Assembly: GCA_017516745.1 (NCBI GenBank)
Contig: JAFXBF010000017.1
Span: 1-64,000, forward strand
Direction: 5' to 3'
From: Clostridia bacterium
GTDB lineage: Bacteria > Bacillota > Clostridia > Oscillospirales > Acutalibacteraceae
DNA length: 64,000 bases
The notes beneath the pieces were generated by a model that worked only from the letters and a program-made list of their open reading frames with translations, did not search any database and was not told the origin of the DNA. Positions 33,818 to 49,141 of this stretch are shown one piece after another (positions within the stretch are counted from its first letter, which is position 1; each line of letters starts with the position of its first letter). A program made the position numbers and the translations under genes.

Positions 33818-35017
33818 TTATTTTGCAGGGGGTACGTTGATTTCGATATCAGTCAACGGGAATGAACAGCAAGGATGAATACAGCCGAACTTATAGTCTG
33901 CCAGTCTGCGGTATTCAAGGTGCTTGGGCACGTAAACCTTACCGCTTATAAGGTGCGAGTGGCAGAAGCCGCACTCACCGCTTCTGCAGCGTGCAGGAAC
34001 GGCAAGACCGTTCTTTTCAATAGTCTGCATAACGGAATCGGAAGATTTGCCGAAAATGATATAGGTTTTATCCTGAATTGTAACCGTGATTTTAACCTTT
34101 TCGGGAATGCCTGCAGGATAATCCTCTTGAGTTTCGGGGTTGTGGAATTCGCCGAACATCTCATGGCGGATGTATTTCTTTTCAAGACCAAGCTTTTCGA
34201 TTTCCTTATCAACAAAGGCATACATCTGCTGTGAACCGCAGATAAATATCGAATAAGGCTCGTTTTCGGGAGCGTATTTCTTAATTAAATCCGCCGTAAT
34301 AAAGCCTTTTTCCGTGCCTGCGATTTCCTTGGTTTCATCGTTTAAAACGTGAACAACCTTGATTTTATCGCACTTTTCGCACAGTGCATCAAGCTCTTCA
34401 CGGAAAAGAATGCTGTCATAAGTCTTACTGCCGTAGATGAGTGTCATTTCAAAATCTTCATCACCGTCGGCAACAGCATTTGCCATAGAAACGAAGGGTG
34501 TGATACCACTGCCGCCTGCTACACAAACAACCTTTGCGGCATCTCGAAGGGGCTGATATTCAAAATTGCCCGAGGGTGCGGAAACTTCAACCTCTGTGCC
34601 AACAACCCATGTATCAAAAATATATTTTGACATCAGACCGCCTTCAACAAGTCTGATAGTAAGAACATACTTGCCGTCCAGTGAATCCTTCGGTGAAGAG
34701 GAAATGGAATATGCTCTTGTTACGGGCATACCCTCAATTGATTCAAAAACGGTAAGATATTTACCTGCACCGAAATATGCAAGTGCTTCAGTGCCTTTTT
34801 CAAGGTTTGGTACAAGAGTATAACTCCTGCAATCCTCCGCTCTTTCGATAACCTCGGCTACCTTGAGATACTGGCGCTTGGGGTGAAGAGCCTTTGCAAG
34901 TGCAGTTGCGTTGTCTGCGACCTTGGGAAGCACGGGTGCAGCGGCGTTGAACTTCGCCTGTCTGTCGGGGAGCATTGATAAGAATTTTTTAGCTGAAAGT
35001 GATTTAAGGTCTGCCAT
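33818..35017 (-). CDS. Flavodoxin/ferredoxin reductase-type oxidoreductase with C-terminal [2Fe-2S] domain
   Basis: 399 residues in three parts. An FAD-binding barrel carries TRAYSISSSP, the RxYSxxS flavin signature. An NAD(P)-binding domain has VCVAGGSGITPFVS and SIFICGSQQMYAFV. A plant-type ferredoxin domain has CRSGECGFCHSHL, with a fourth Cys in FGCIHPC. It should carry electrons from NAD(P)H via FAD to a [2Fe-2S] centre. An N-terminal extension of about 45 residues is unusual. It starts one base after the stop of the FAD-dependent oxidoreductase gene, so the two very likely work as a redox pair. Confidence 0.85.
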   Translation of the reverse strand: MADLKSLSAKKFLSMLPDRQAKFNAAAPVLPKVADNATALAKALHPKRQYLKVAEVIERAEDCRSYTLVPNLEKGTEALAYFGAGKYLTVFESIEGMPVTRAYSISSSPKDSLDGKYVLTIRLVEGGLMSKYIFDTWVVGTEVEVSAPSGNFEYQPLRDAAKVVCVAGGSGITPFVSMANAVADGDEDFEMTLIYGSKTYDSILFREELDALCEKCDKIKVVHVLNDETKEIAGTEKGFITADLIKKYAPENEPYSIFICGSQQMYAFVDKEIEKLGLEKKYIRHEMFGEFHNPETQEDYPAGIPEKVKITVTIQDKTYIIFGKSSDSVMQTIEKNGLAVPARCRSGECGFCHSHLISGKVYVPKHLEYRRLADYKFGCIHPCCSFPLTDIEINVPPAK

Positions 35018-35018
35018 A

Positions 35019-36575
35019 TTATTTGCCCTCCTTAAGTGCTTTAACTACAATTCCGCCTGCTTTTTCGCCTGTATAATAAGCACAGCCGTAGCCGTCGCCT
35101 CTTTCCTGAGTTGCGCCGCAGAAGAAGAAATTGTCAAACGGCTGGTCTTTCATATACTGAACGGTACGGGGAATCATGCTGTCCCATTTTTCGAGCTGAT
35201 AACCGTAGGGTGTACCCCAGGGTGTATTGAGATATCTTGCAAATGTGGGCGGAAGTGCAATTTCAATTTCTTCGATATAAGGTGTAATTGAAATGTTGAG
35301 TGCCTTTTCGCAGGTTTCAATCATATCCTTTGCAACCTTGGTCTTGAACTTCTTGTAATCCTGAGGCTTGACATCACGCATAACATCGCCGAAGGTCATT
35401 GACGTAAGGAAAAGCTGACAGGTGCCTTCGGGTGTACAGTCGGGAATAATCTCGTTAAGGCAGTTGATAATGCAGTAACCGCTGCCGTAATCGTTACACA
35501 GTGCACACTGCTTGTCGGAATCCGAATCGGGAGCAATGAATACGGAATAATCGGTAATACCCAATTCTTCTTTGGTTTTATTCATACCGAGATAAACAGT
35601 TGTAAGCGTACACGCTGTTTTACGGGCGTTGAGCATTTTAAGCTGCTTTTCAGGGATATCCTTTTTGTCGAAAAGGTCTCTCCATACAGCGTGGGGATAG
35701 GAGTTACAAATAAAGTACTTACCGTAAACCTCCTTCTCACCGTTAATGACAACGCCTACGGGTTTGCCGTTTTCACAAATTATCTTTGTTACTTCGGAGT
35801 TGTACCATATATCGCCGTCGTTATCACGGATAACCTTATCGATTGCAAGGCTCATTTCGTGGCTGCGAAGATGGGGAATTCCCGTACCGCTTCTGACATA
35901 GCTGTGAAGCACGGCAAGATAATAAAGGAAGTCAAATTTTGAACCGGGTACACCCATATAGCACCAGTAGGTTGAAAAAATATCCTGTGCTTTTTTAGGC
36001 ATACCGAGTGCGTCAAGACCCTCATTGAGTGTATGAGAAACCATACGCATAATGTCGGGCATATCCTTAAGAATACCGGGAAGCAGCTTGGGATTGTCCA
36101 GTGCATCAAAAGCATTAAACATTCTGTTTGACAAGTCGAAGGCAGCCATACAGCTCTCATAAGAGCCGGGAACGAGCTCTTCAAGCTTACGGGCAAAGTT
36201 CTCAAAGCCGACGGGCATACGGGCATCGACCGTAACAAGAACACCGTCCTCATTGACAAAAGCGTCCTTGTCGCCTTCTTTTGCAGGAACAACAAGACGA
36301 AAGGTGGAATTATCCTTGTACCAGTCAACATCAGCGTTCCATTTGTTGAACATTACTTCAATTGAGCCGGGCTCTTCAGGTGTACCTATACCTGCAAGCT
36401 CGTGCAAAGAGGGCTCGAACTCGAATCTGCCCCTGACAAAAGAAGATGCAGAGCCGCCGGGAATATTGTGCCTTTCCAACAGAAGCGTGGAAAGACCGGC
36501 TTTCGCACAGGTAGCGGCTGCGGCAAGACCGCCGTTACCGGCACCGATGATTATTACATCATATTTTTTCATCAT
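35019..36575 (-). CDS. FAD-dependent oxidoreductase, phytoene desaturase/retinol saturase family
   Basis: This 518-residue flavoprotein has a dinucleotide loop IIGAGNGGLAAAATCAKAG and the family stretch HNIPGGSASSFVRG near the N-terminus. A substrate-domain centre follows, and the C-terminal FAD segment is FFFCGATQERGDGYGCAYYTG. Relatives desaturate, saturate or isomerise conjugated lipids such as carotenoids and retinoids. No carotenoid synthesis genes are in the window, so the natural substrate is unknown. Coupling to a NAD(P)H-[2Fe-2S] reductase suggests a reductive reaction, such as alkene saturation. Confidence 0.82.
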   Translation of the reverse strand: MMKKYDVIIIGAGNGGLAAAATCAKAGLSTLLLERHNIPGGSASSFVRGRFEFEPSLHELAGIGTPEEPGSIEVMFNKWNADVDWYKDNSTFRLVVPAKEGDKDAFVNEDGVLVTVDARMPVGFENFARKLEELVPGSYESCMAAFDLSNRMFNAFDALDNPKLLPGILKDMPDIMRMVSHTLNEGLDALGMPKKAQDIFSTYWCYMGVPGSKFDFLYYLAVLHSYVRSGTGIPHLRSHEMSLAIDKVIRDNDGDIWYNSEVTKIICENGKPVGVVINGEKEVYGKYFICNSYPHAVWRDLFDKKDIPEKQLKMLNARKTACTLTTVYLGMNKTKEELGITDYSVFIAPDSDSDKQCALCNDYGSGYCIINCLNEIIPDCTPEGTCQLFLTSMTFGDVMRDVKPQDYKKFKTKVAKDMIETCEKALNISITPYIEEIEIALPPTFARYLNTPWGTPYGYQLEKWDSMIPRTVQYMKDQPFDNFFFCGATQERGDGYGCAYYTGEKAGGIVVKALKEGK

Positions 36576-38433: not shown

Positions 38434-40611
38434 ATGAAAAAACCTACACTATACTTAGGAAAATTCAAGCAGTACGATAAAGTATTTATCACGGACGAAA
38501 GCGGAATTGACATTAAAAATGTTACTTCCGTTGCTTTTGAAGGTGAAAAACTTTACATTGCTCAGCCTGACTGCCTATTTGAATATGATGACGGTAAGGC
38601 AAAGAAGATAAACACAAAAGTAACAAAGCTGTTTTCAAGAAACGGCACACTTTTTGCATCTACAGGTAACTTCCTTGCAGAAATCAAAAACGGCAGGGTT
38701 AAGAAAATTGCAGAATTTGACTCCCCTGTTACCGATGTTTCCTACGGTCTTGACAATTCCCTCTGGCTTATTACCAAAACAGCTCTTTACTTAAAAAAAG
38801 ACGGTGAATTCACAAGGATTGTCGGTATACCGGAAAACACAGCCTGCCTTGCCGCAAAGGACAATGTATCAAGATACGCCGAAACGGTATATATCGGCTG
38901 TCCCGACGAAGGTCTTATGTCAATGAAGGGTAAGCGCCGCCATTGGGCAGAGCTTATTCCGAGCATTACGGGTGCGCTGAGCAAAAAGGTCAACTGCATT
39001 GCTCTTGACGGCCTGGGTCACCTTTGGGTAGGCTCTGACGAGGGTCTTAATATTTATGACGGCAGAAATTACTGGTTTAACGGTAATGATGTTTATTCCG
39101 TGCCCGACGGTGCATTTAACGATATGTGCTTTACCACGGACGGCAAAAAGTATTTTGCAACAAACACAGGCGTTGTTACTCTTATTGAAGGTAAAATATC
39201 TTATTTCTCATACGGCACATGGCTTATGCATCCGACTGTTACAAAAATTGCTGTTTCCGAAAACGGTACAATTGCCGCAGTAACCCCCAGAGGTATCAGC
39301 CTTATTTCTCATACATATATGACACTTGAAGAAAAGGCCGCACATTACGACGAAATGGCTGATAAATACTTCTGCCGAAATGAGGGTTATCAGGTTACAA
39401 GATACCTCAAAAAGTACGGTGACCTTGATTCGGGCTGGCTTCCCAATTCAGATAACGACGGTCTTTTCACAGGCGTTTATGTAGCAAGCCAGTGCTTCCG
39501 CTATGCGGTAACCGGAGATGAACAGGCAAAGCAATTTGCAAAGAAAGGCCTTGAAGCTATGATTAAGCTTACCGAGGTTACAGGTAAGCCCGGTTTCACG
39601 GCAAGAGCAACAAGATATTCGCACGAGCCCGAATTCGGCACGGAAAACCGTGAGGAATGGCACATTTGCGAGGATAATCCCGATTGCGAATGGCTCGGAG
39701 AAACATCAAGCGATGAAATGACGGGGCACTATTTCGCTTACGGTCTTTACTTTGACCTTGTTGCAGATGATGAAGAAAAAAAGAAAATTGAGAAGGTTGT
39801 CAGAGCAATTACCGACCATATCATAGATAACAACTTCCACCTTACCGATGTTGACGGTATTCCGACAACATGGGCTAACTGGGAGCCCGACCTGCTCAAC
39901 AACGACGACAGGTGGTATTATGAGCGTGGCACAAACTCGCTTGAAATACTCTCCTTCCTCAAAACAGCATATCATGTCACGGGTGATGAGAAATACAACA
40001 AGGTATTTGATATGCTTATCCAAAAGCATCACTACGCAATGAACTGTATGCAATATAAATGCGAAGACGGTCACGTTGCGCATATTGATGACCAGCTTGA
40101 TTTTGTTAACATCTATCCGCTTATTATGTACACGGACAATGAAGCACAGAAGGAAATATTCAAGATGGGTCTCAACCACCACTGGGCTTATGAAAGAACG
40201 GAGCGTTCACCCTATTTCAACATAGTTTACGGTGCACTCACAAACAACTTCTGTGATATTGAAAATGCTGCAAAATCGCTTGCAGAAATGAATATGGACA
40301 CAATAAGATGGCCCATTTTCAACAGCTACCGCAAGGACATTGTATGGGATACGGAGCAGGAAGAAATGGGTATCCCTGCACAGCTCAAATACCCCGTTGA
40401 ATATTCATCCAAGCTCGTTATTCATTACGACGGCAATCCCTTTATCTGCGATTCGGGTGCGGAAGAATTTGTAAACATCAACACAAAGCAGGTTAACCGT
40501 ACAACCACACTTCCCGGTACAGCAGGTGCTAACGGCTTACGTGCACTTACACCATACATCTATCTTCTGCCCTACTGGATGGGCAGATATCACGGCCTTC
40601 TCGGCGATTGA
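38434..40611 (+). CDS. Cytoplasmic two-domain protein: beta-propeller plus alpha/alpha-barrel (putative glycan-active enzyme)
   Basis: I do not recognise a named family. 725 residues without a signal peptide. The first 290 or so form short blades such as LGHLWVGSDEGLNIYDG, which resembles the two-component-regulator propeller repeat. From about residue 296 the sequence is helical with aromatic/acidic clusters (DSGWLPNSDNDGLFTG, WANWEPDLLNNDDRWYYERG, LNHHWAYERTERS), suggestive of six-hairpin glycosidases. Position between a sugar kinase and an MFS transporter supports a role in carbohydrate use. AGGAG precedes the chosen ATG; a 20-codon upstream extension lacks a ribosome site. Confidence 0.6.
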   Translation: MKKPTLYLGKFKQYDKVFITDESGIDIKNVTSVAFEGEKLYIAQPDCLFEYDDGKAKKINTKVTKLFSRNGTLFASTGNFLAEIKNGRVKKIAEFDSPVTDVSYGLDNSLWLITKTALYLKKDGEFTRIVGIPENTACLAAKDNVSRYAETVYIGCPDEGLMSMKGKRRHWAELIPSITGALSKKVNCIALDGLGHLWVGSDEGLNIYDGRNYWFNGNDVYSVPDGAFNDMCFTTDGKKYFATNTGVVTLIEGKISYFSYGTWLMHPTVTKIAVSENGTIAAVTPRGISLISHTYMTLEEKAAHYDEMADKYFCRNEGYQVTRYLKKYGDLDSGWLPNSDNDGLFTGVYVASQCFRYAVTGDEQAKQFAKKGLEAMIKLTEVTGKPGFTARATRYSHEPEFGTENREEWHICEDNPDCEWLGETSSDEMTGHYFAYGLYFDLVADDEEKKKIEKVVRAITDHIIDNNFHLTDVDGIPTTWANWEPDLLNNDDRWYYERGTNSLEILSFLKTAYHVTGDEKYNKVFDMLIQKHHYAMNCMQYKCEDGHVAHIDDQLDFVNIYPLIMYTDNEAQKEIFKMGLNHHWAYERTERSPYFNIVYGALTNNFCDIENAAKSLAEMNMDTIRWPIFNSYRKDIVWDTEQEEMGIPAQLKYPVEYSSKLVIHYDGNPFICDSGAEEFVNINTKQVNRTTTLPGTAGANGLRALTPYIYLLPYWMGRYHGLLGD

Positions 40612-41876: not shown

Positions 41877-41912
41877 AAAGCGTCAGAGAGAAAAAATACT
41901 CCCTGACGCTTT
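41877..41912. terminator. Bidirectional intrinsic terminator
   Basis: The 10-bp stem AAAGCGTCAG / CTGACGCTTT is followed by TTTTTT on the plus strand and flanked by A-rich DNA on the left. It separates the sugar operon from the convergent corrinoid operon. Confidence 0.88.
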
Positions 41913-41914
41913 TT

Positions 41915-43312
41915 TCAGTCAAACATCATATTCTCGATAAACAAATCAGCAAAATCTTTATTGAGTGACAAGTCAACATATTCTGCCTTCTGGATAATTT
42001 CTGATAAGTCATTCTTTTCCGTTGCGTATTTTATACCGCCAAGCAAACTGCTGTTGTTGACAGTAATGCATTTGTCTTTAAACCCCTGCGGAAGAAGACC
42101 GGTTTTAACTGCACTTGCAATATTGATTTTTGCCGAAAATCCACCCGAAATAAAGACTTTGTCAATATCATTGAAACTTAGCTCTTTTACTTTCAGAAGC
42201 GTCATAACAGCGGAATAAACAGCTGATTTTGCAAGCTGATACTGTCTGATATCTTCCTGAGTGATAAATACATTATCTGTAATACCATACTTTTCACAGT
42301 CCATATATCCCGTTTCGTCAACAATATCATTTTCAAGCAGAAAGCCAATGATATCAACAAGACCGGTACCGCAAATTCCCTTGGGAGCTGTATTGTTAAT
42401 TGTTTCAGCCTTTCCGTTTGTAAATGAATAAACAGCACCGTCACAAGCACTCATACCGCAGGATATATTTGCGCCTTCAAAGCAAGGACCTGCTGCCGCC
42501 GCTGTACAAACAATATCTTCGTCAGAAAACAAAACCGTTTCCGCATTTGTTCCAAGATCAATAAGAATATTGTATTTACCGCTTTCAGGCTGACCGACAA
42601 AGTTAAGACCCGCAACAATATCTGCACCGACAAAAGCTGAAACGCAGGGAAGCGAAACAACATCTGATATTCCTGACAGACCTAATTCTGAACCCGATGC
42701 ATATTTTGATTCAAGAAAAATAGGTGTATAAGGTGCGACACCGATTGTTGAACAGTCAATGCCGAAAAATAAGTGAAGCATAGTCGTATTGCCTGTAACA
42801 AAAAGCGGTAAATTATTACCGACATTTAGCTTATATATCAGTCGGTTAACCTCTTCAATAAGCGGTAGCTGCAACGGTTTAACACCGTTATTGCGGCAGT
42901 AATCAATTCTCGATATTACATCAGCGCCGAATCTGCGTTGCGGATTTACAGCCGTTTCAACCGATATTACTTTCTTTTCGTCAAGTGAAACGAGTGCAAG
43001 TGCAAGCGTAGTTGTGCCTATATCGAGGACAAAACAGGCGTTTTGTGTAATCACCCCTGTTTCATCGGCACCCGTTACGGATACTATATTCGTATTTTCA
43101 CAGGCGGTTACAACAATATCGGAATTGACTTTATATTGGCAGGATAAAGCTTTCTCACCGTTTACGCTGACCAAGCATTTACGGCATATCCCCTTACCGC
43201 CGCACGGATGTTCAACTGCTTTTCCGGCACGAACAAGCACATCGGACAAAAGCTGACCGTGAGCAGCAAACAGAGTATCACCGTTAAAAATAACCTTATG
43301 CATAAAGCTCAT
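41915..43312 (-). CDS. Corrinoid activation protein (RACo-like, [2Fe-2S] plus ASKHA/DUF4445)
   Basis: Such proteins use ATP and a reduced iron-sulfur centre to bring inactive Co(II) corrinoid back to Co(I). An N-terminal plant-type ferredoxin domain has HPCGGKGICRKCLVSV and a fourth Cys in ALSCQY. An actin-like ATPase domain starts with FVLDIGTTTLALALVSL (phosphate loop) and contains DLGTNAETVLF and KVFISGGFSAKINIAS. At 465 residues it is shorter than RACo (about 630): the ATPase part follows the ferredoxin after only about 20 residues. Its start overlaps the upstream methyltransferase stop by up to 17 bases; ATG at 43303 is an alternative. Confidence 0.85.
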   Translation of the reverse strand: MSFMHKVIFNGDTLFAAHGQLLSDVLVRAGKAVEHPCGGKGICRKCLVSVNGEKALSCQYKVNSDIVVTACENTNIVSVTGADETGVITQNACFVLDIGTTTLALALVSLDEKKVISVETAVNPQRRFGADVISRIDYCRNNGVKPLQLPLIEEVNRLIYKLNVGNNLPLFVTGNTTMLHLFFGIDCSTIGVAPYTPIFLESKYASGSELGLSGISDVVSLPCVSAFVGADIVAGLNFVGQPESGKYNILIDLGTNAETVLFSDEDIVCTAAAAGPCFEGANISCGMSACDGAVYSFTNGKAETINNTAPKGICGTGLVDIIGFLLENDIVDETGYMDCEKYGITDNVFITQEDIRQYQLAKSAVYSAVMTLLKVKELSFNDIDKVFISGGFSAKINIASAVKTGLLPQGFKDKCITVNNSSLLGGIKYATEKNDLSEIIQKAEYVDLSLNKDFADLFIENMMFD

Positions 43313-44285
43313 TTACCTTTTTAAAATATGCGTCTATGTTTTCCCACTTTGCATCGGCAGGCACATCACAGCCTGTTGAAATCATAAAATTAGGATAGGA
43401 TGAACATTCGTTGAAAATACGTTCAACTTCTGCAGAAACACATTCGGGTGTGCCTGTGCGCAGTAGCAACGGGTCAACATTACCCATTACGATTCTATCG
43501 TTTGGTAAGAAATCAAGTGCTTTCTTTATATCTACAGCGTTACCGAAATGATAAATATCAGCACCAACTGTTGAAATACCCTCAAGCATATCAGCAACAT
43601 AGTTGCCGCAGTTGTGGTAACAGAGAACAAAAACATCCGAATTTACTGCATCAAAAATTCTTTTAACAAACGGTACTGAAAACTCATCGGCAAACGTGGG
43701 TGACAGCATACCTGCAGCAGGCTCAGCCATAATAACTCCGTCAGCACCGACCGCTTTGAAAGCATTGATATAATTTATTATAAATTCCGCAGCTTTTTCA
43801 AGCAGAATTTTAACTTCATCAGGGCTGTCATAACAGGCATACATAAGCTCTGTCATATCGAAAAGACGGCTTGCAAGGGAATAAGGCCCGATTACACCGC
43901 AGAAAACGGGTATATCGGCTATTATATCTTTTGCTATTTTTACTCCGTCAATGAAAATGCCCGTTCTGCCTGCACCTGTTTGAGGTACTGCAATCCTTGA
44001 TACATCTTCAATATCATCAATAATTCCGCCGATAACCGTAGGAATTTCATTTTCACTGAAATGTATCTTTGCGCCGAAGGCTTCTGCCTCGACAGATAAA
44101 TCCATCATATTAAGCGAAGCGCCAATACTGCATCTCTCGGCAATTGCTTTCATACCCTTCGCCTGATTATCGGCAGAAGATATCAGGTCATTAACACTTA
44201 TACTGAGCAGTTTAGTTGACGGAAAGCTGAGTATGGGTACGGTTTTATTTTTGTTTTCGATTATATTCTGTACAATTGTTTTCAT
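43296..44285 (-). CDS. UroD-family corrinoid methyltransferase, MtaA/MtbA-like (methyltransferase 2 candidate)
   Basis: 330 residues from the ATG at 44285, which has AGGAC upstream; the frame is open further but overlaps the corrinoid gene. The zinc/thiol-activating site of MtaA/MtbA is complete: CYHNCGNYV (His-x-Cys) and STGCDVPADA (third Cys). MtaA-type enzymes move methyl groups between a corrinoid protein and a thiol or, in acetogen-type bacteria, tetrahydrofolate. Here it probably removes the methyl group from the corrinoid protein encoded immediately upstream. It is followed by the corrinoid activator. Confidence 0.82.
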   Translation of the reverse strand: MKTIVQNIIENKNKTVPILSFPSTKLLSISVNDLISSADNQAKGMKAIAERCSIGASLNMMDLSVEAEAFGAKIHFSENEIPTVIGGIIDDIEDVSRIAVPQTGAGRTGIFIDGVKIAKDIIADIPVFCGVIGPYSLASRLFDMTELMYACYDSPDEVKILLEKAAEFIINYINAFKAVGADGVIMAEPAAGMLSPTFADEFSVPFVKRIFDAVNSDVFVLCYHNCGNYVADMLEGISTVGADIYHFGNAVDIKKALDFLPNDRIVMGNVDPLLLRTGTPECVSAEVERIFNECSSYPNFMISTGCDVPADAKWENIDAYFKKVNELYA

Positions 44286-44298
44286 AATTCTGTCCTGA

Positions 44299-44931
44299 TT
44301 ATCTGCAAAGTTCAACAGCGGCATCCGCAGCACTTGCGGCATCAGAAGTATAAACGTCAGCACCGATATTTTTGCAGAATTCCTCTGTAATCGGAGCACC
44401 GCCTATCATAATTTTAATCCTTTCACGGACTCCTGCAATTTCAGCTTGCTTTACAACCTCAGCCATTTCATCCATTGTTGTTGTGAGAAGTGCCGAACAG
44501 CAGATAACCTTGCAATCCTGCTCAATTGCTGTGTTCACAAAGGCTTCGGGTGCAACATCTGTGCCAAGGTCAATAACCTCAAGCCCCTTACCTTCCATCA
44601 TCATTTTAACAAGATTTTTACCGATATCGTGCATATCGCCACGAACGGTACCGAGGCATACCTTACCGACAGCCTGAACATTGCCTTCTGTAAGCAAAGG
44701 CTTGAGTATTGCAACACCTGCATTCATCGCCCTTGCCGCAACAAGTACCTCGGGCACGTAAACCTCGTTATTTTTAAAGCGCTCGCCTATTTCATTCATA
44801 CCGACAAGAAGACCGAGATTTAATATGTCTTCAGCAGGAAGACCGGAATCAACAGCTGACTGAACAAGCTCTTTTACCATTTTCATTTTGCCCGTGCGGA
44901 CGTTTTCTGATATTTCAAGATATATACTCAT
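44299..44931 (-). CDS. Corrinoid (B12-binding) methyl-carrier protein
   Basis: 210 residues in the MtaC/MtbC/MttC layout. An N-terminal helical cap (about 1-85) contains ILNLGLLVGMNEIGERF and EVLVAARAMNAGV. A Rossmann B12 domain follows with the base-off signature GDMHDIGKNLVKMMMEG (the His replaces the lower ligand), CSALLTTTM and MIGGAPITEEF. It shuttles a methyl group on cobalt between the two methyltransferases encoded on each side. GAGGAG precedes the ATG. Confidence 0.95.
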   Translation of the reverse strand: MSIYLEISENVRTGKMKMVKELVQSAVDSGLPAEDILNLGLLVGMNEIGERFKNNEVYVPEVLVAARAMNAGVAILKPLLTEGNVQAVGKVCLGTVRGDMHDIGKNLVKMMMEGKGLEVIDLGTDVAPEAFVNTAIEQDCKVICCSALLTTTMDEMAEVVKQAEIAGVRERIKIMIGGAPITEEFCKNIGADVYTSDAASAADAAVELCR

Positions 44932-44945
44932 AATTAGTACTCCTC

Positions 44946-46064
44946 TTAAATTCGAATCTTCTTTATTTCTTCGGCGTAATACTGCACAAGCTCAAATTTA
45001 GTGCCCGGCATCAATCTGTGGTCGGGACAGGGAATAAATCCACCCATCGAGGCAAGCCGCTTCATACGCTGAATTTCGGCGTCAACAGCCGCTTTATCCT
45101 TACGCAAAGCGGTTTTGTCCATACCGCCGACACCAAGCATTCCCTTGCCGAATTTGTTTCGTGCGACCTCAAATTGGTCTCCCCATACACCGATTTCAAT
45201 CGGGAACATTGTGTTGACACCGTTTTTAAACCACGTAGGCAACAGCTTTTCCGTAACACCGTCACAGTCAAGCGAAATAATATCTATTCCGTATTCGTGA
45301 CATAAATCATTGCGCTTTTTATAATGCTTTGCACAAAGCTCATCAAACTTTTCCGGTGATATCAACGGACCGTTTTTAAAACAGATATCCTCCCAATAAT
45401 GCGCAAAATCAAACCTTGCGCCCGTTTCAAGAATTTCTTTGACACATTTATACTGCATTTCGGCAAAGGTATCGACAATGTCGGCAAAAAGTTCTTCGTC
45501 TTCATCATACATAAGATAGCTCATACCTACAACCGAAGTCATATCACGGATGCTTCCCAATACACTTCCGAGGTGAAGACCTACAGGTCTGTCATAATCA
45601 CGGGTTTCGTTGAAATTTTTGAAATAATCGTAATTTACTCGTTCGGGTGAAAACTGCATTTTGGGCTTATAAAGATTTTCAAAAGCCTCTCTGTCCTTTA
45701 GAGTGTAATCGTCTTCGGACGGGATAGAAGCTATACCCGGTTTGATTCGTTCTATAACACCTGCACCGTTTAAAACTCTGCGTGACCCGTCGGGCAAGAT
45801 TTCGAGCTCTTTTTGTTCAAAGCAAGGATAAAGACCGTTGTTTGCTCCTTTTGTGTTGTTCCAGTTAAAATCCCAGCCGATTAATTCATCGAGCGCTTTG
45901 TCCATTTCGCCGCCGTCGCCTATACCGCCTGCAAAATCTTTCGGTATCTTACCCTGCTCAACCCATTCGGTAAGCAGTTCGCCCCAATAGCCGAAATGAA
46001 CGGCAGGCAAACGGTCAACATCTTTATAATGCAGTATATTCAGCGCTCTTTCACGGTTAGTCAT
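44946..46064 (-). CDS. UroD-family corrinoid methyltransferase (methyltransferase 1 candidate)
   Basis: 372 residues of the uroporphyrinogen-decarboxylase superfamily, beginning MTNRERALNILHYKDVDRLP, the opening common in methyltransferase members. In place of the His-x-Cys of MtaA it has SLDCDGVTEKLL, and later FIPCPDHRLMPGT, giving candidate metal ligands Asp/Cys and Cys/Asp/His. This fits substrate-specific methyltransferases such as O-demethylase component I rather than the heme-pathway decarboxylase. The substrate is unknown. It is directly upstream of the corrinoid protein (14-base gap). Confidence 0.8.
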   Translation of the reverse strand: MTNRERALNILHYKDVDRLPAVHFGYWGELLTEWVEQGKIPKDFAGGIGDGGEMDKALDELIGWDFNWNNTKGANNGLYPCFEQKELEILPDGSRRVLNGAGVIERIKPGIASIPSEDDYTLKDREAFENLYKPKMQFSPERVNYDYFKNFNETRDYDRPVGLHLGSVLGSIRDMTSVVGMSYLMYDEDEELFADIVDTFAEMQYKCVKEILETGARFDFAHYWEDICFKNGPLISPEKFDELCAKHYKKRNDLCHEYGIDIISLDCDGVTEKLLPTWFKNGVNTMFPIEIGVWGDQFEVARNKFGKGMLGVGGMDKTALRKDKAAVDAEIQRMKRLASMGGFIPCPDHRLMPGTKFELVQYYAEEIKKIRI

Positions 46065-46070
46065 AACATA

Positions 46071-46958
46071 TCACCCGTTTTGCTCGGTTTCTTTCTTGCA
46101 GGAATAATAAATTGACTCCAGCTTTTCGTTTGTGGCAGTTCTGTCAATAATCGCCTTAACAAGGCTGTCAAGCTCCGTGCCTTCGGAATAATCGGCAGGA
46201 GCAAAATATCTGATTCGTCTGTCACGCATCATTCTGTAAACCTTGGTTTTATTCCTGGTTTGTGCATCATACACACCTATTGAATGTCCACCGTAGGAAC
46301 TGACAAGCTTCATACAGGGTATATCCGTATCGCTGTCACCGATATAAACCATATTGCGGAATGGGACACGGATTTCCTCGGCAGGAAAATAATCGTTTAC
46401 ACGGGGGTCGTTTACATCAAGCACACCCTTCTGTATTCTGAAAAGGAACTGTGTCTTGTTGGTATAATTTACAACCTGCGCAGGCCACTTCGCAACACCA
46501 CGCTCATTGTACCAGAAAGAACTGGCATAAATCTTTTTAAAAGCGCCGTTTTTTGCCATTTCGGTGCCTTCAATCATTTCTTTAAGTCCGGAAGAAATTA
46601 TGTAATGTTCAACAATTACACCTTTTTCAAGGCCGTATTGACGGATTCTTTCAAACCATTCATTGACGCCGGGAAACAGCTTAACATTAGCGCCGTATTC
46701 GCCAAGTGTTTCCCGTTTGAGCACGAGATTGCCTTCTGCTTCTTGTACCATCTTGTGCATATACGCAAGGTTCTGGTCCATATCATTTTTTCTTGCGAGC
46801 TCATTGGATTCTTTCCAGAAATCCTCAACATTATAGCCGACAGACTGAATGTACCCTTGCGCCTGCATATCGTCAGGCGTGAGGGTTTTATCAAAATCGT
46901 AGCAGACAGCAAGTACGGGCATTGCTTCCTTACCGAATTTTATATATGTGTTATCCAT
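46071..46958 (-). CDS. HAD-superfamily hydrolase
   Basis: 295 residues with HAD motif I CYDFDKTLTPDD (nucleophile and acid/base Asp), motif II in YIISSGLKEM and motif IV VYIGDSDTDIPCM. The large helical insertion between motifs I and II resembles phosphoserine-phosphatase-type (HAD-IB) enzymes. The phosphorylated substrate is unknown. Its place between the SGNH hydrolase and the methyltransferase suggests dephosphorylation of an intermediate in the same pathway. It ends 6 bases before the methyltransferase start. Confidence 0.82.
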   Translation of the reverse strand: MDNTYIKFGKEAMPVLAVCYDFDKTLTPDDMQAQGYIQSVGYNVEDFWKESNELARKNDMDQNLAYMHKMVQEAEGNLVLKRETLGEYGANVKLFPGVNEWFERIRQYGLEKGVIVEHYIISSGLKEMIEGTEMAKNGAFKKIYASSFWYNERGVAKWPAQVVNYTNKTQFLFRIQKGVLDVNDPRVNDYFPAEEIRVPFRNMVYIGDSDTDIPCMKLVSSYGGHSIGVYDAQTRNKTKVYRMMRDRRIRYFAPADYSEGTELDSLVKAIIDRTATNEKLESIYYSCKKETEQNG

Positions 46959-46964
46959 ACGCTT

Positions 46965-47624
46965 TTACCTTGCGTTAAGTCTCGGCTCAACACATTCCTT
47001 CCATCGTCTGGCGATAAGCTGATGTCCGCCGGTTGTGGGGTGAACACCGTCCCACAGGAGTTTAAAAATATCCGTCTTTTTTGCATATTCATCAAAAATA
47101 TCCTGAAGAGGTACAAAAACAGCATTATATTCTTCTGCAACTTCTTTTGTCGCAGCAGCAAAAGAAGCAATATTCGCTTTAGCGTATTTATCCCATTCAG
47201 CGTTATCCTTTGAAGTACCGAAAAACGGCTCCATAATAACTATCAGTACATCGGGATTCACTTCAATTGCTTCATCAAGCATCAAACGGTATATCTTTTT
47301 AAAACGCTCTGTATCTGAACCGCAGCCGCATTCAAAATTTCCGTAAATATCATTAACTCCGACAAGTATACTCAACACATTCGGCTTAAGATTAATACAA
47401 TCCTCTTTCCATCTGCCGTAAAGATTGGCAATTCTGTTGCCGCTGATGCCTCTGTTGATAACTTCAAAATCCACATCCAAATTATCCGCATGCATTTCTG
47501 AAGCTAAAATATACTGATACCCGTGACCGTGAATATGGTTGAGGTCATCGTTTCTGCCACGATTGCCGTCGGTTATAGAGTCGCCCTGAAAAAGTATAAC
47601 ATCATTGTTTTTAAGTCTGAACAT
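46965..47624 (-). CDS. SGNH/GDSL-family hydrolase (putative esterase)
   Basis: 219 residues with all four SGNH blocks: FQGDSITDG (nucleophilic Ser), RGISGNRIANL (Gly), VGVNDIYGN (Asn) and WDGVHPTTGGH (Asp/His). There is no signal peptide, so it is cytoplasmic. Relatives remove acetyl or other acyl groups from sugars and aromatic esters. It lies second in the corrinoid operon, behind the transporter, and could free the methylated substrate from an ester after import. Confidence 0.87.
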   Translation of the reverse strand: MFRLKNNDVILFQGDSITDGNRGRNDDLNHIHGHGYQYILASEMHADNLDVDFEVINRGISGNRIANLYGRWKEDCINLKPNVLSILVGVNDIYGNFECGCGSDTERFKKIYRLMLDEAIEVNPDVLIVIMEPFFGTSKDNAEWDKYAKANIASFAAATKEVAEEYNAVFVPLQDIFDEYAKKTDIFKLLWDGVHPTTGGHQLIARRWKECVEPRLNAR

Positions 47625-47641
47625 ATAATCACCTATGTAAA

Positions 47642-49084
47642 TTATTTAACTGCAAAAGCTCTTGATTTTGTCAAATCGCCGTACATAACCTCAAGCTTTG
47701 ATTTATTGAGCGGATAAAGCATAAACAGTACAAAAACTAAAGTATAAACAATAGCGGGAATTACGGTGCAGACAAAGAGTATGCCTTCGCCGACACCTTC
47801 AACATAGCCTGCCGAGCCGTGAACAGCACCGTCGTAGCCTGCTACGGAAGAGAGCAGCTTCATACCGCCGACATCGGCAAGTGTCTGACCGAGTTTACGG
47901 CAGAAGGTATATACGGCGTAAACGGCACTTTCGCTGCGGATACCTGTTTTGTATTCCTGATAATCAATAACATCCGTTATAACAGCCCAGTTTGTAATGC
48001 TGACAAAAGAATATCCGAAGCCGATAATAAACAGGAATATCATAAACACAACCGAAGCGTTACCAAGTCTGTCGCAATGGGGAACAATAACAAACATAAG
48101 TATTGAAGCTATTGCAGAAAGAAGAGTACCGATTGTGCAAAGCTCCTTTTTACCGTATTTCTTGACAAGCTTAGGTGTAAACAGAATCATAACCGCCATG
48201 GGCAGATATGTTGCAACAGTACCGATAATTGACAAATCGGTATTTTCAAAGTAATTTTTGTAAAGATACTGGTTGAGTGAGTTGAATTGAAGCTGACCGC
48301 TTATAAGTATTCCCGAAAGTGCGGCAATAACAAAGGGCTTGCTCTTGAGCATACCGAGATATGTCTGCTTGACATCAACCTTGGGCTCTGCTTCGGAAGC
48401 AACTCTCTCCTTTGTCGTTGCAAAACAAAGGAAATAGAAAATAATGGAAAGCACACCCATTATTATACCGAATTTCATCATACCGCCTGCATCGGCTGCT
48501 TTTATGGGATTACCCTGAGAGTTTGTGCCGACAACGGTATAAATAATCATCGGGCCGATAAGCAGCGGTATCGCTCCGCCGAGACCTGCACCGACCGAAC
48601 GGAAGGTGGAAAGAAGCGTTCTGCCCTCGGGGTCGTCGGTAATAACGGAGGCAAGAGAGCCGTAAGGAATATTCATACCGGTATACATCATACCGAAACC
48701 GATATATGAAGCATACATAAGCGCAAGCACAACAGCTTCGTTTGTCGTGAAATCTCTGAAATTGACAAAGCAAAGTATTGAAGTTATGCCGAGAGGTATG
48801 GCACACCACTTTAAATAGGGTCTGAACTTGCCGTCTTTACCCGGTCTGCGCTTGGCAACAATTGTACCCCACAATGGATCGTTAATTGCATCCCACAGCC
48901 TTGAAATGAGAAGCAGAGTTGTAATTTTGCTCTCTGCAACCTTGAGAACATCGGTATAAAAAACTTTAAGATAAGATGAAACATAAGTAAGGACAAACAA
49001 ATTGGCAGCATCGCCGAGACCGTAGCCGAATGAGTCCTTCATACCGATTTTGTTAGGGTGTTGAAAAGTACGCTGTTTTTCCAA
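47642..49084 (-). CDS. GPH-family (MelB-type) transporter
   Basis: A 480-residue, 12-helix symporter of the glycoside-pentoside-hexuronide group. The loop between helices 2 and 3 reads DPLWGTIVAKRRPGKDGKFR, a divergent form of the usual DxxxGxxxDRT motif; WAVITDVIDYQEYKTGIRSE is the conserved later loop. The start is TTG with GGAGG seven bases before it. It is the first gene of the corrinoid operon, behind its own promoter, so it is the likely importer of the methylated substrate, perhaps a glycoside. Confidence 0.86.
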   Translation of the reverse strand: MEKQRTFQHPNKIGMKDSFGYGLGDAANLFVLTYVSSYLKVFYTDVLKVAESKITTLLLISRLWDAINDPLWGTIVAKRRPGKDGKFRPYLKWCAIPLGITSILCFVNFRDFTTNEAVVLALMYASYIGFGMMYTGMNIPYGSLASVITDDPEGRTLLSTFRSVGAGLGGAIPLLIGPMIIYTVVGTNSQGNPIKAADAGGMMKFGIIMGVLSIIFYFLCFATTKERVASEAEPKVDVKQTYLGMLKSKPFVIAALSGILISGQLQFNSLNQYLYKNYFENTDLSIIGTVATYLPMAVMILFTPKLVKKYGKKELCTIGTLLSAIASILMFVIVPHCDRLGNASVVFMIFLFIIGFGYSFVSITNWAVITDVIDYQEYKTGIRSESAVYAVYTFCRKLGQTLADVGGMKLLSSVAGYDGAVHGSAGYVEGVGEGILFVCTVIPAIVYTLVFVLFMLYPLNKSKLEVMYGDLTKSRAFAVK

Positions 49085-49112: not shown

Positions 49113-49141
49113 AGCATAACATTAAAGAAAGTAAATTTCAA
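49113..49141 (-). promoter_or_regulatory. Promoter of the corrinoid methyltransferase operon
   Basis: On the minus strand TTGAAA (49136-49141), 17-base spacer, TATGCT (49113-49118), about 28 bases before the TTG start. It is the only good promoter seen for the seven-gene operon. Confidence 0.7.

Follow-up and report, generated by a model that had tools for sequence, protein, structure and literature searches.

A predicted corrinoid methyl-transfer operon of Clostridia and its possible role in the demethylation of O-methyl sugars

Which compound gives up its methyl group to a seven-gene operon of a Clostridia bacterium, and where does that group go? The operon lies in the window analysed here, a stretch of 64,000 nucleotides that is part of contig C16 in a 2.89-Mb genome of 28 contigs (G000 below). 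As listed in the original prediction, seven closely spaced open reading frames (ORFs) were confirmed on the minus strand at 41915-49084, with the transcription order GPH transporter, SGNH hydrolase, HAD phosphatase-like protein, donor methyltransferase (MT1), corrinoid protein (CorP), MtaA-like methyltransferase (MT2) and reductive activator of the corrinoid protein (RACo). The last four genes almost certainly encode a corrinoid methyl-transfer system, and domains and motifs were found for all parts of the predicted four-part system with its own importer. Demethylation stays the leading idea. Taken as a whole chain, B12-dependent anaerobic demethylation of an O-methyl sugar or glycoside with transfer of the methyl group to homocysteine is a tentative proposal, and its links differ in strength.

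The core proteins were assigned from their domains and motifs. CorP (44299..44931, minus strand, as are all features of the operon; 210 amino acids) carries the Pfam domains B12-binding_2 and B12-binding and the motif DMHDIG, and it matches 1y80 in the PDB (8.4e-54), in line with a methyl-carrying corrinoid protein. This genome holds only one corrinoid protein besides MetH, and several donor enzymes may share CorP as their hub. MT2 (43296..44285), a URO-D protein with HNC and GCD motifs (H224-N-C226...C306 in ATG-based numbering), matches MtaA in the PDB (4ay7, 1.4e-14) and CdmB weakly, and stays under the cut-offs of all MtaA/MtbA models of NCBIfam (142/244, 109/235, 99/600 and 97/400 bits). 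Of 39 aligned rows, all have its His, 37 have the first Cys and 36 have the second. The MT2 gene is real, as predicted, but it encodes 329 and not 330 amino acids when read from the ATG at 44285. RACo (41915..43312, 465 amino acids) matches Pfam RACo_C_ter (1.7e-53) and Raco_middle (8.3e-39) as well as PDB 3zyy (1e-59); it has a CGGKGICRKC motif, with 2Fe-2S matches that are weak and below cut-off.

MT1 (44946..46064, 372 amino acids) scores 41.4 bits with Pfam URO-D and matches none of the NCBIfam models, and its structure was predicted with a pLDDT of 93.0. It finds MtaA by profile only (0.0011), with D266-x-D268...H349 aligned to the zinc-ligand positions of MtaA, in agreement with the earlier view of a UroD-family enzyme without the MtaA site. 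These three residues are invariant in 54 aligned rows and are also present in 20 further homologues of 46-79% identity. In the UroD superfamily, enzymes that act on O-methyl groups have carboxylates in place of the Cys ligands (PMC10418091). Because Asp-x-Asp...His stands where MtaA has its zinc ligands, the substrate class of MT1 is fairly probably an O-methyl donor, and the site would bind a metal. Assignment to heme synthesis finds no support for either UroD protein: the R-x-A-G-R motif, which we take to be that of HemE, is absent from both, MT2 reaches 70.7 bits against a hemE cut-off of 303, and the hemE model is likewise unmatched by MT1.

The same site bears on an mlp-type function, in which the methyl group would be moved between sulfur or selenium compounds during methyl-Se recycling or methionine salvage. 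An MtaA-like MT2 with His-Cys-Cys, CorP, an activator and no tetrahydrofolate (THF) methylase fit the criteria published for such clusters (PMC10418091), and 6 of 21 MT1-like paralogues have H-x-C at the first two positions (D-x-D in 15, H349 kept). Both Cys ligands, however, are absent from MT1 in all rows examined, an objection drawn from the site, no search for selenium or MarHDK-type genes having been made, and we regard this function as improbable.

The core set is not a chance arrangement, judging by its recurrence in many relatives. When genome contigs were searched with MT1, 205 relatives were found, and the best 80 loci were fetched, with genes picked by an ORF script and not from annotation, some shadow ORFs being likely. 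By their record titles, these loci come mostly from herbivore-gut metagenome-assembled genomes and include one cultured strain, Eisenbergiella porci; two of them (L037 and L038) are near-identical, and both count among the 80, whereas neighbour scans omitted L038. ORF clustering placed the corrinoid protein in 60, RACo in 49 and MT2 in 44 of the 80 loci, some of which end within the cluster. A DUF2284-type protein (one member was scanned and is DUF2284; for example L061:10057-10626) occurs in the cluster of 48 loci and not in the operon of the window. In a sample of the same order, 39 of 295 genomes have MT1 at E 1e-80 or better, 17 of them, one being this genome, with an identity of 70-100% and the other 22 with one of 45-51%, and in a family sample the two other genomes of the same genus have no MT1. 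In the E. porci locus (L062), MT1 at 80% identity lies near a contig end and the rest of the cluster is out of view. A third URO-D protein, the second of donor type, is encoded on contig C21 of this genome (L112:1111-2079), 65% identical to a family that stands beside MT1 in several relatives. ORFs of about 410 amino acids, such as L091:8732-9973, form another family that adjoins MT1 in 11 loci; the scanned copy has no Pfam match and looks UroD-like by eye.

The original prediction likened the system to O-demethylase and methanol systems. The four parts are present, but the acetogenic side of the likeness did not hold. No methyl-THF-type MT2 was detected in this genome, Pterin_bind being found only in a 269-residue DHPS-like frame and in MetH, both on other contigs, and no match to acetyl-CoA synthase (PF03598) was found in G000, which is 97% complete. 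Whole-genome scans covered the genomes of the 49 loci with RACo plus G000, and two of these 50 genomes match acetyl-CoA synthase, G211 strongly and one weakly. With neither a THF-type MT2 nor acetyl-CoA synthase found, the methyl group does not appear to follow the acetogen route, and acetogenic O-demethylation is not supported.

From the ligands of the MT2 site, the acceptor is probably a thiol. Which thiol is suggested by the loci that lack this enzyme. Of the 49 loci with RACo, 14 have no MT2, and a homocysteine S-methyltransferase gene is found in 4 of these 14 against 0 of the 35 others (p=0.0047): it lies inside the operon in L103 and L110, on the other strand in L051 and about 5 kb off in L090. 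At the level of whole genomes, a free-standing PF02574 frame of 283-386 amino acids is present in 14 of 14 MT2-less genomes and is the sole kind in 11. The 35 genomes with MT2 mostly have PF02574 only in a MetH-sized frame, the exceptions being G211 (305 amino acids), G226 (413), G219 (564), G232 and G239 (partial) and three without a match. In G000 the domain occurs only in MetH; this genome therefore has no free homocysteine subunit of the kind found in split methionine synthase. Most simply, MT2 would be required in genomes that confine homocysteine methylation to MetH and dispensable in those where a free enzyme can take the methyl group from CorP. For marine bacteria, it has been proposed that a demethylase and a homocysteine subunit use the same corrinoid protein (PMC12478193). 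Given that all 14 MT2-less relatives have a free homocysteine methyltransferase, homocysteine, giving methionine, is the likeliest acceptor, at somewhat better than even chances.

The MT1 tree tempers this assignment. Its MT2-less loci fall into two clades, and there are thus few independent cases of MT2 loss; a lineage effect is possible, and the idea that MT2 loss and a free homocysteine methyltransferase came together in many independent events was rejected. In this tree test, L070, L094 and L107 (no PF02574 match) and L089 (a fragment) were set as unknown, and the free homocysteine enzyme was scored as present in L050, L075 and L099. Demethylation as proposed could also end on another MT2 acceptor, such as sulfide, another thiol, or THF via MetH. 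The MT2 site says only thiol, this genome keeps a MetH with a pterin domain, and the related ClMlp2 methylated selenide and, more slowly, sulfide (PMC10418091). The company that the free homocysteine methyltransferase keeps with MT2 loss, including its place inside two operons, nevertheless makes such an acceptor doubtful.

For the donor, the neighbours of MT1 in relatives were informative. In two loci of one genus (L130:3081-10221 and L123:3314-10439), a single operon runs GH78, RhaS-like AraC-type regulator, RhaB, RhaA and RhaD and, after 21 nucleotides, ends with an MT1 homologue of 47% identity; RhaB and the regulator miss the curated cut-off, which RhaA and RhaD pass. The MT1 operons of L050, L063, L092 and L097 include alpha-L-rhamnosidases of GH106 or GH78 type, and GH78 stands upstream of MT1 in L133. 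In a comparison of 125 operon extras with 391 other genes, rhamnosidases numbered 6 and 1, respectively (p=0.001), a test that leans in favour of the association because its queries came from these operons and L133, the second L092 copy has no Pfam match of its own and the outside copy lies near the MT1 cluster of L081. In L071, UxaA and UxaB lie ahead of MT1, and the cluster of L098 has a KDG-kinase-like fragment ahead of it. RhaA is present in 47 of the 50 genomes, a count with no matched baseline. At L137:2390-4614 and L138:7812-10036, from two near-identical genomes, the gene right after RhaA, on the same strand and about 104 nucleotides away, encodes a free homocysteine S-methyltransferase.

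Several results weigh against a sugar donor. None of 20 RhaA regions, this genome's included, contains MT1, CorP or MT2, and a general link between RhaA and the MT1 system was rejected on this basis. The homocysteine enzyme follows RhaA in L137 and L138, 17 of the regions have none, and L139 has a 544-residue relative (32% identical) further on, past a gene on the opposite strand. A general enrichment of carbohydrate enzymes around MT1 is not clear: counted by hand among the matches listed, they made up about 16 of the 96 operon extras, and they made up at least 6 of the 64 other genes, the latter taken from the best 25 of 41 and the best 25 of 43 families, and no formal test was applied. For this count there were 120 operon extras of at least 180 amino acids (L038 left out), of which 96 were scanned and 64 of a hand-picked list rescanned; of 385 other genes, 64 were scanned. 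Several MT1 homologues of 45-51% identity adjoin housekeeping genes. Finally, 4-O-methylglucuronate from xylan is not supported as a general donor, since GH67 was found in 4 and GH115 in 6 of the 50 genomes and neither in this one. Because the rha regions of most examined MT1 genomes hold no gene of the MT1 system, we lowered a sugar donor from an even chance to slightly below it. The sugar-type donor guessed at originally stays plausible, with a sugar importer in the operon and sugar catabolic genes beside MT1 in some relatives. Methyl-rhamnose is the first candidate and the first compound to try; 3-O-methylrhamnose has been reported from lower land plants in work cited by PMC12590268. Among the titles listed in literature searches, none concerned corrinoid or anaerobic demethylation of methyl sugars.

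The same neighbours could be explained by the same machinery acting on a methoxylated aromatic or phenolic glycoside, in the manner of the vanillate and veratrol O-demethylases, with rhamnosidases and glucuronidase-like enzymes stripping the sugar from plant phenolics. GH78, GH106 and GH2 neighbours would suit phenolic glycosides equally well; known MT1 enzymes of the UroD superfamily use methoxylated aromatics (PMC13222342) and gut O-demethylation of aromatics is reported (PMC12915777). By contrast, the catabolic genes RhaBAD and UxaAB adjoin MT1 in some relatives, and the lack of both a THF-type MT2 and acetyl-CoA synthase does not favour an aromatic donor. Neither a single-sequence nor a profile search with MT1 matched the solved CdmB up to E 1, though MT2 matches it weakly; CdmB is missing from the fold lists, an absence that carries no information. 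An aromatic donor is rated unlikely, and for the phenolic glycoside suggested in the original prediction the data gave no preference either way.

The three genes ahead of MT1 bear on import and on the direction of transfer. The first gene, GPH (47642..49084, 480 amino acids, TTG start), is a GPH-family sugar:cation symporter by TIGR00792 (288.5 bits, above the cut-off of 231) and falls under the cut-off of the PRK09848 glucuronide transporter (228 against 528 bits). The SGNH/GDSL hydrolase (46965..47624, 219 amino acids; Pfam Lipase_GDSL_2, 3.9e-26) has GDS, GVND and DG.H motifs, matches an acetyl xylan esterase (2.4e-28) and, best in the PDB, 4q9a (9.4e-35), and is probably cytoplasmic, no signal peptide being seen by eye. 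The HAD phosphatase-like protein (46071..46958, 295 amino acids; Pfam HAD, 1.6e-11) has DFDKT and GDSDTD motifs and scores below the cut-off of its HAD-IB subfamily, with no PDB sequence match up to E 0.01. The original prediction counted all three as part of the system. Their linkage was indeed seen in the two nearest loci, L031 and L032, which also share the remaining gene order of the window, but it is not general: 2 of 80 loci have it, some loci ending close to MT1. Given this distribution, the trio looks like a lineage-specific addition and the four-gene core like the system proper. Corrinoid methyl transfers are reversible in principle, and the system could in that sense methylate a sugar or another oxygen compound. 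An importer and hydrolases in the operon of the window and sugar catabolic genes in relatives suggest breakdown instead, and an ATP-driven activator presumably fits Co(I) as methyl acceptor, so that this direction is very improbable.

In 20 of the 80 loci (for example L035:11151-12665), the corrinoid protein is encoded in one frame behind an N-terminal AraC-type regulator, both parts being confirmed by Pfam in the two fusions scanned. The corrinoid gene of the window, a 210-residue ORF, is not fused. No full-length member of this AraC subfamily stands as a separate neighbour gene in the 80 loci, all 20 being fused; a more remote AraC-type gene adjoins CorP in L136. A Shine-Dalgarno-like GGAG precedes an ATG at the corrinoid start in 17 of the 17 fusion loci without another corrinoid gene, compared with 14 of 333 other in-frame ATGs, and this conserved, putative internal ribosome site is absent from the three fusion loci with a second corrinoid gene (L050, L071 and L087). 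GGAG occupies one codon register in 14 loci and another in 3, so that it seems to be the RNA, not the peptide, that is conserved at the internal start. The MT1 tree requires at least 11 changes of the fusion trait, and L039 and L041 have a short in-frame stretch resembling the fusion linker ahead of the corrinoid start, which suggests that the AraC part was lost there. Across 200 genomes of the window's family, the AraC part was found in 29 at E 1e-15, with two strong matches in frames of 508 and 524 amino acids. The 508-residue frame (AraC part at G049:C20:5871-6650) lies in a genome without an MT1 match. Produced alongside the free carrier, an AraC-corrinoid fusion could respond to the methylation or redox state of that carrier. 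Among the titles listed in literature searches, none described such fusions. CarH-type proteins are B12-binding transcription regulators and likewise join a corrinoid-binding to a DNA-binding domain; the fusions in relatives differ in that the partner of the AraC-type regulator is the methyl carrier of the pathway itself, whose free form has a second start.

Within the operon, the gaps between genes were computed as 17, 6, 6, 14, 10 and -17 nucleotides; the ATG at 44285 makes the CorP-MT2 gap 13 nucleotides, the script's value of 10 reflecting a start one codon early. GPH is preceded by a promoter-like site (TTGAAA-17-TATGCT with a TG extension; 49113..49141, minus strand), and RACo is followed by a stem of 14 pairs that resembles a terminator (41877..41912, minus strand), both being consensus matches only. 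As operon bounds they are suggestive only, since the region holds 24 promoter-like and 6 terminator-like sites in total against a shuffled expectation of 18.8 and 6.7. No known RNA, riboswitches included, reached gathering score across the window, and the weak sub-threshold matches upstream of GPH look like chance. An RNA scan of seven relatives gave only Gut-1 and tRNA matches, in L041 and at least about 1.5 kb beyond the RACo gene of the cluster. Elsewhere in the window, a 725-residue protein without a Pfam match (38434-40611, plus strand) adjoins ribokinase-like and pentose-phosphate-epimerase-like genes and is conserved in L031 and L032. At 33818-36575 on the minus strand, a flavin-reductase-like protein with a 2Fe-2S tail adjoins, by eye, a phytoene-desaturase-like oxidoreductase; the former could supply electrons to the system.

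Taken together, we infer the following steps, including metal binding, donor class, acceptor and direction, from gene content and motifs. GPH would import the substrate, which SGNH and HAD would trim in this lineage; an O-methylated sugar or glycoside is the most likely one, with methylated deoxysugars such as methyl-rhamnose as first candidates. MT1 would then bind the methyl ether oxygen at a hard metal site and pass the methyl group to Co(I) of CorP, and MT2 would activate a thiol on zinc (His-x-Cys...Cys) and take the methyl group from methyl-Co(III), the thiol most likely being homocysteine and the product methionine. RACo would re-reduce corrinoid that has slipped to Co(II), and the freed sugar would enter normal catabolism. 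In its widest form, which we hold to be doubtful, the proposal is that gut Clostridia demethylate O-methyl sugars without O2 via a corrinoid into methionine, and that in many of them one gene yields both free CorP, via an internal ribosome site, and an AraC-fused copy that controls the operon by the methylation or redox state of the carrier. More simply, the B12 enzymes of this gut bacterium, in which no acetogen pathway was detected, probably strip methyl groups off plant-derived compounds, perhaps methylated sugars, and transfer them to a sulfur compound, most likely for methionine synthesis. If true, this would be a corrinoid demethylase that supplies methionine synthesis and not acetogenesis or methanogenesis, with concrete candidate enzymes in many uncultured Clostridia and one cultured strain, and, if both products are made, the AraC-corrinoid fusion would be a new kind of pathway sensor.

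How does this system relate to known ones? Acetogen three-component O-demethylases of the OdmB/VdmB/MtvB type and the CdmBCA chloromethane system share with it a UroD-fold MT1, a separate corrinoid protein and a RACo-type activator. The acetogen enzymes, however, feed a methyl-THF MT2 and acetogenesis, whereas the MT2 of the window resembles MtaA and has a thiol-type site, acetyl-CoA synthase was not detected and MT1 is too distant to match CdmB by sequence. Type 1 mlp clusters, described in the preprint of Kountz and Balskus (PMC10418091), also combine an MtaA-like His-Cys-Cys methyltransferase, a corrinoid protein and an activator, and, as in those clusters, the corrinoid protein and activator run in the same direction here with no THF methylase within 20 kb. 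They have at least two Mlps with His-Cys-Cys and are linked to methyl-S/Se, whereas this operon has a donor enzyme with Asp-x-Asp...His and sugar-gene neighbours in some relatives; MT2 has the His-Cys-Cys zinc site of Mlps and MT1 does not. Type 1 calls for Mlp2 and Mlp3, each more than 25% identical to a characterised SCMT, and His-Cys-Cys exceptions are allowed among Mlps1 (PMC10418091). As judged by PDB and profile matches, only MT2 resembles an SCMT, through its 4ay7 match, MT1 reaching MtaA by profile alone. The system thus works like a corrinoid demethylase but falls outside the acetogenic O-demethylases, having neither a detected THF-type MT2 nor acetyl-CoA synthase, and outside type 1 mlp clusters on account of its MT1 site.

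A sugar methyl ether is likewise removed by the P450 that demethylates 6-O-methyl-D-galactose from porphyran; that route is O2-dependent, releases formaldehyde and uses unrelated enzymes (PMC10033563). It is the sole sugar-demethylating enzyme that the literature search found, and anaerobic gut handling of sugar methyl ethers was otherwise not described there. For the methyl acceptor, the closest comparison is MtgBCDE glycine betaine demethylation with split methionine synthase in marine bacteria, which uses one corrinoid protein for demethylation and homocysteine methylation, as may be the case here, and has a free homocysteine subunit resembling that of the MT2-less relatives (PMC12478193). 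Its donor is betaine, its methyltransferase is MttB-type, it has a pterin subunit and its hosts are aerobic, whereas in the window the homocysteine step would fall to the MtaA-like protein (PMC12478193).

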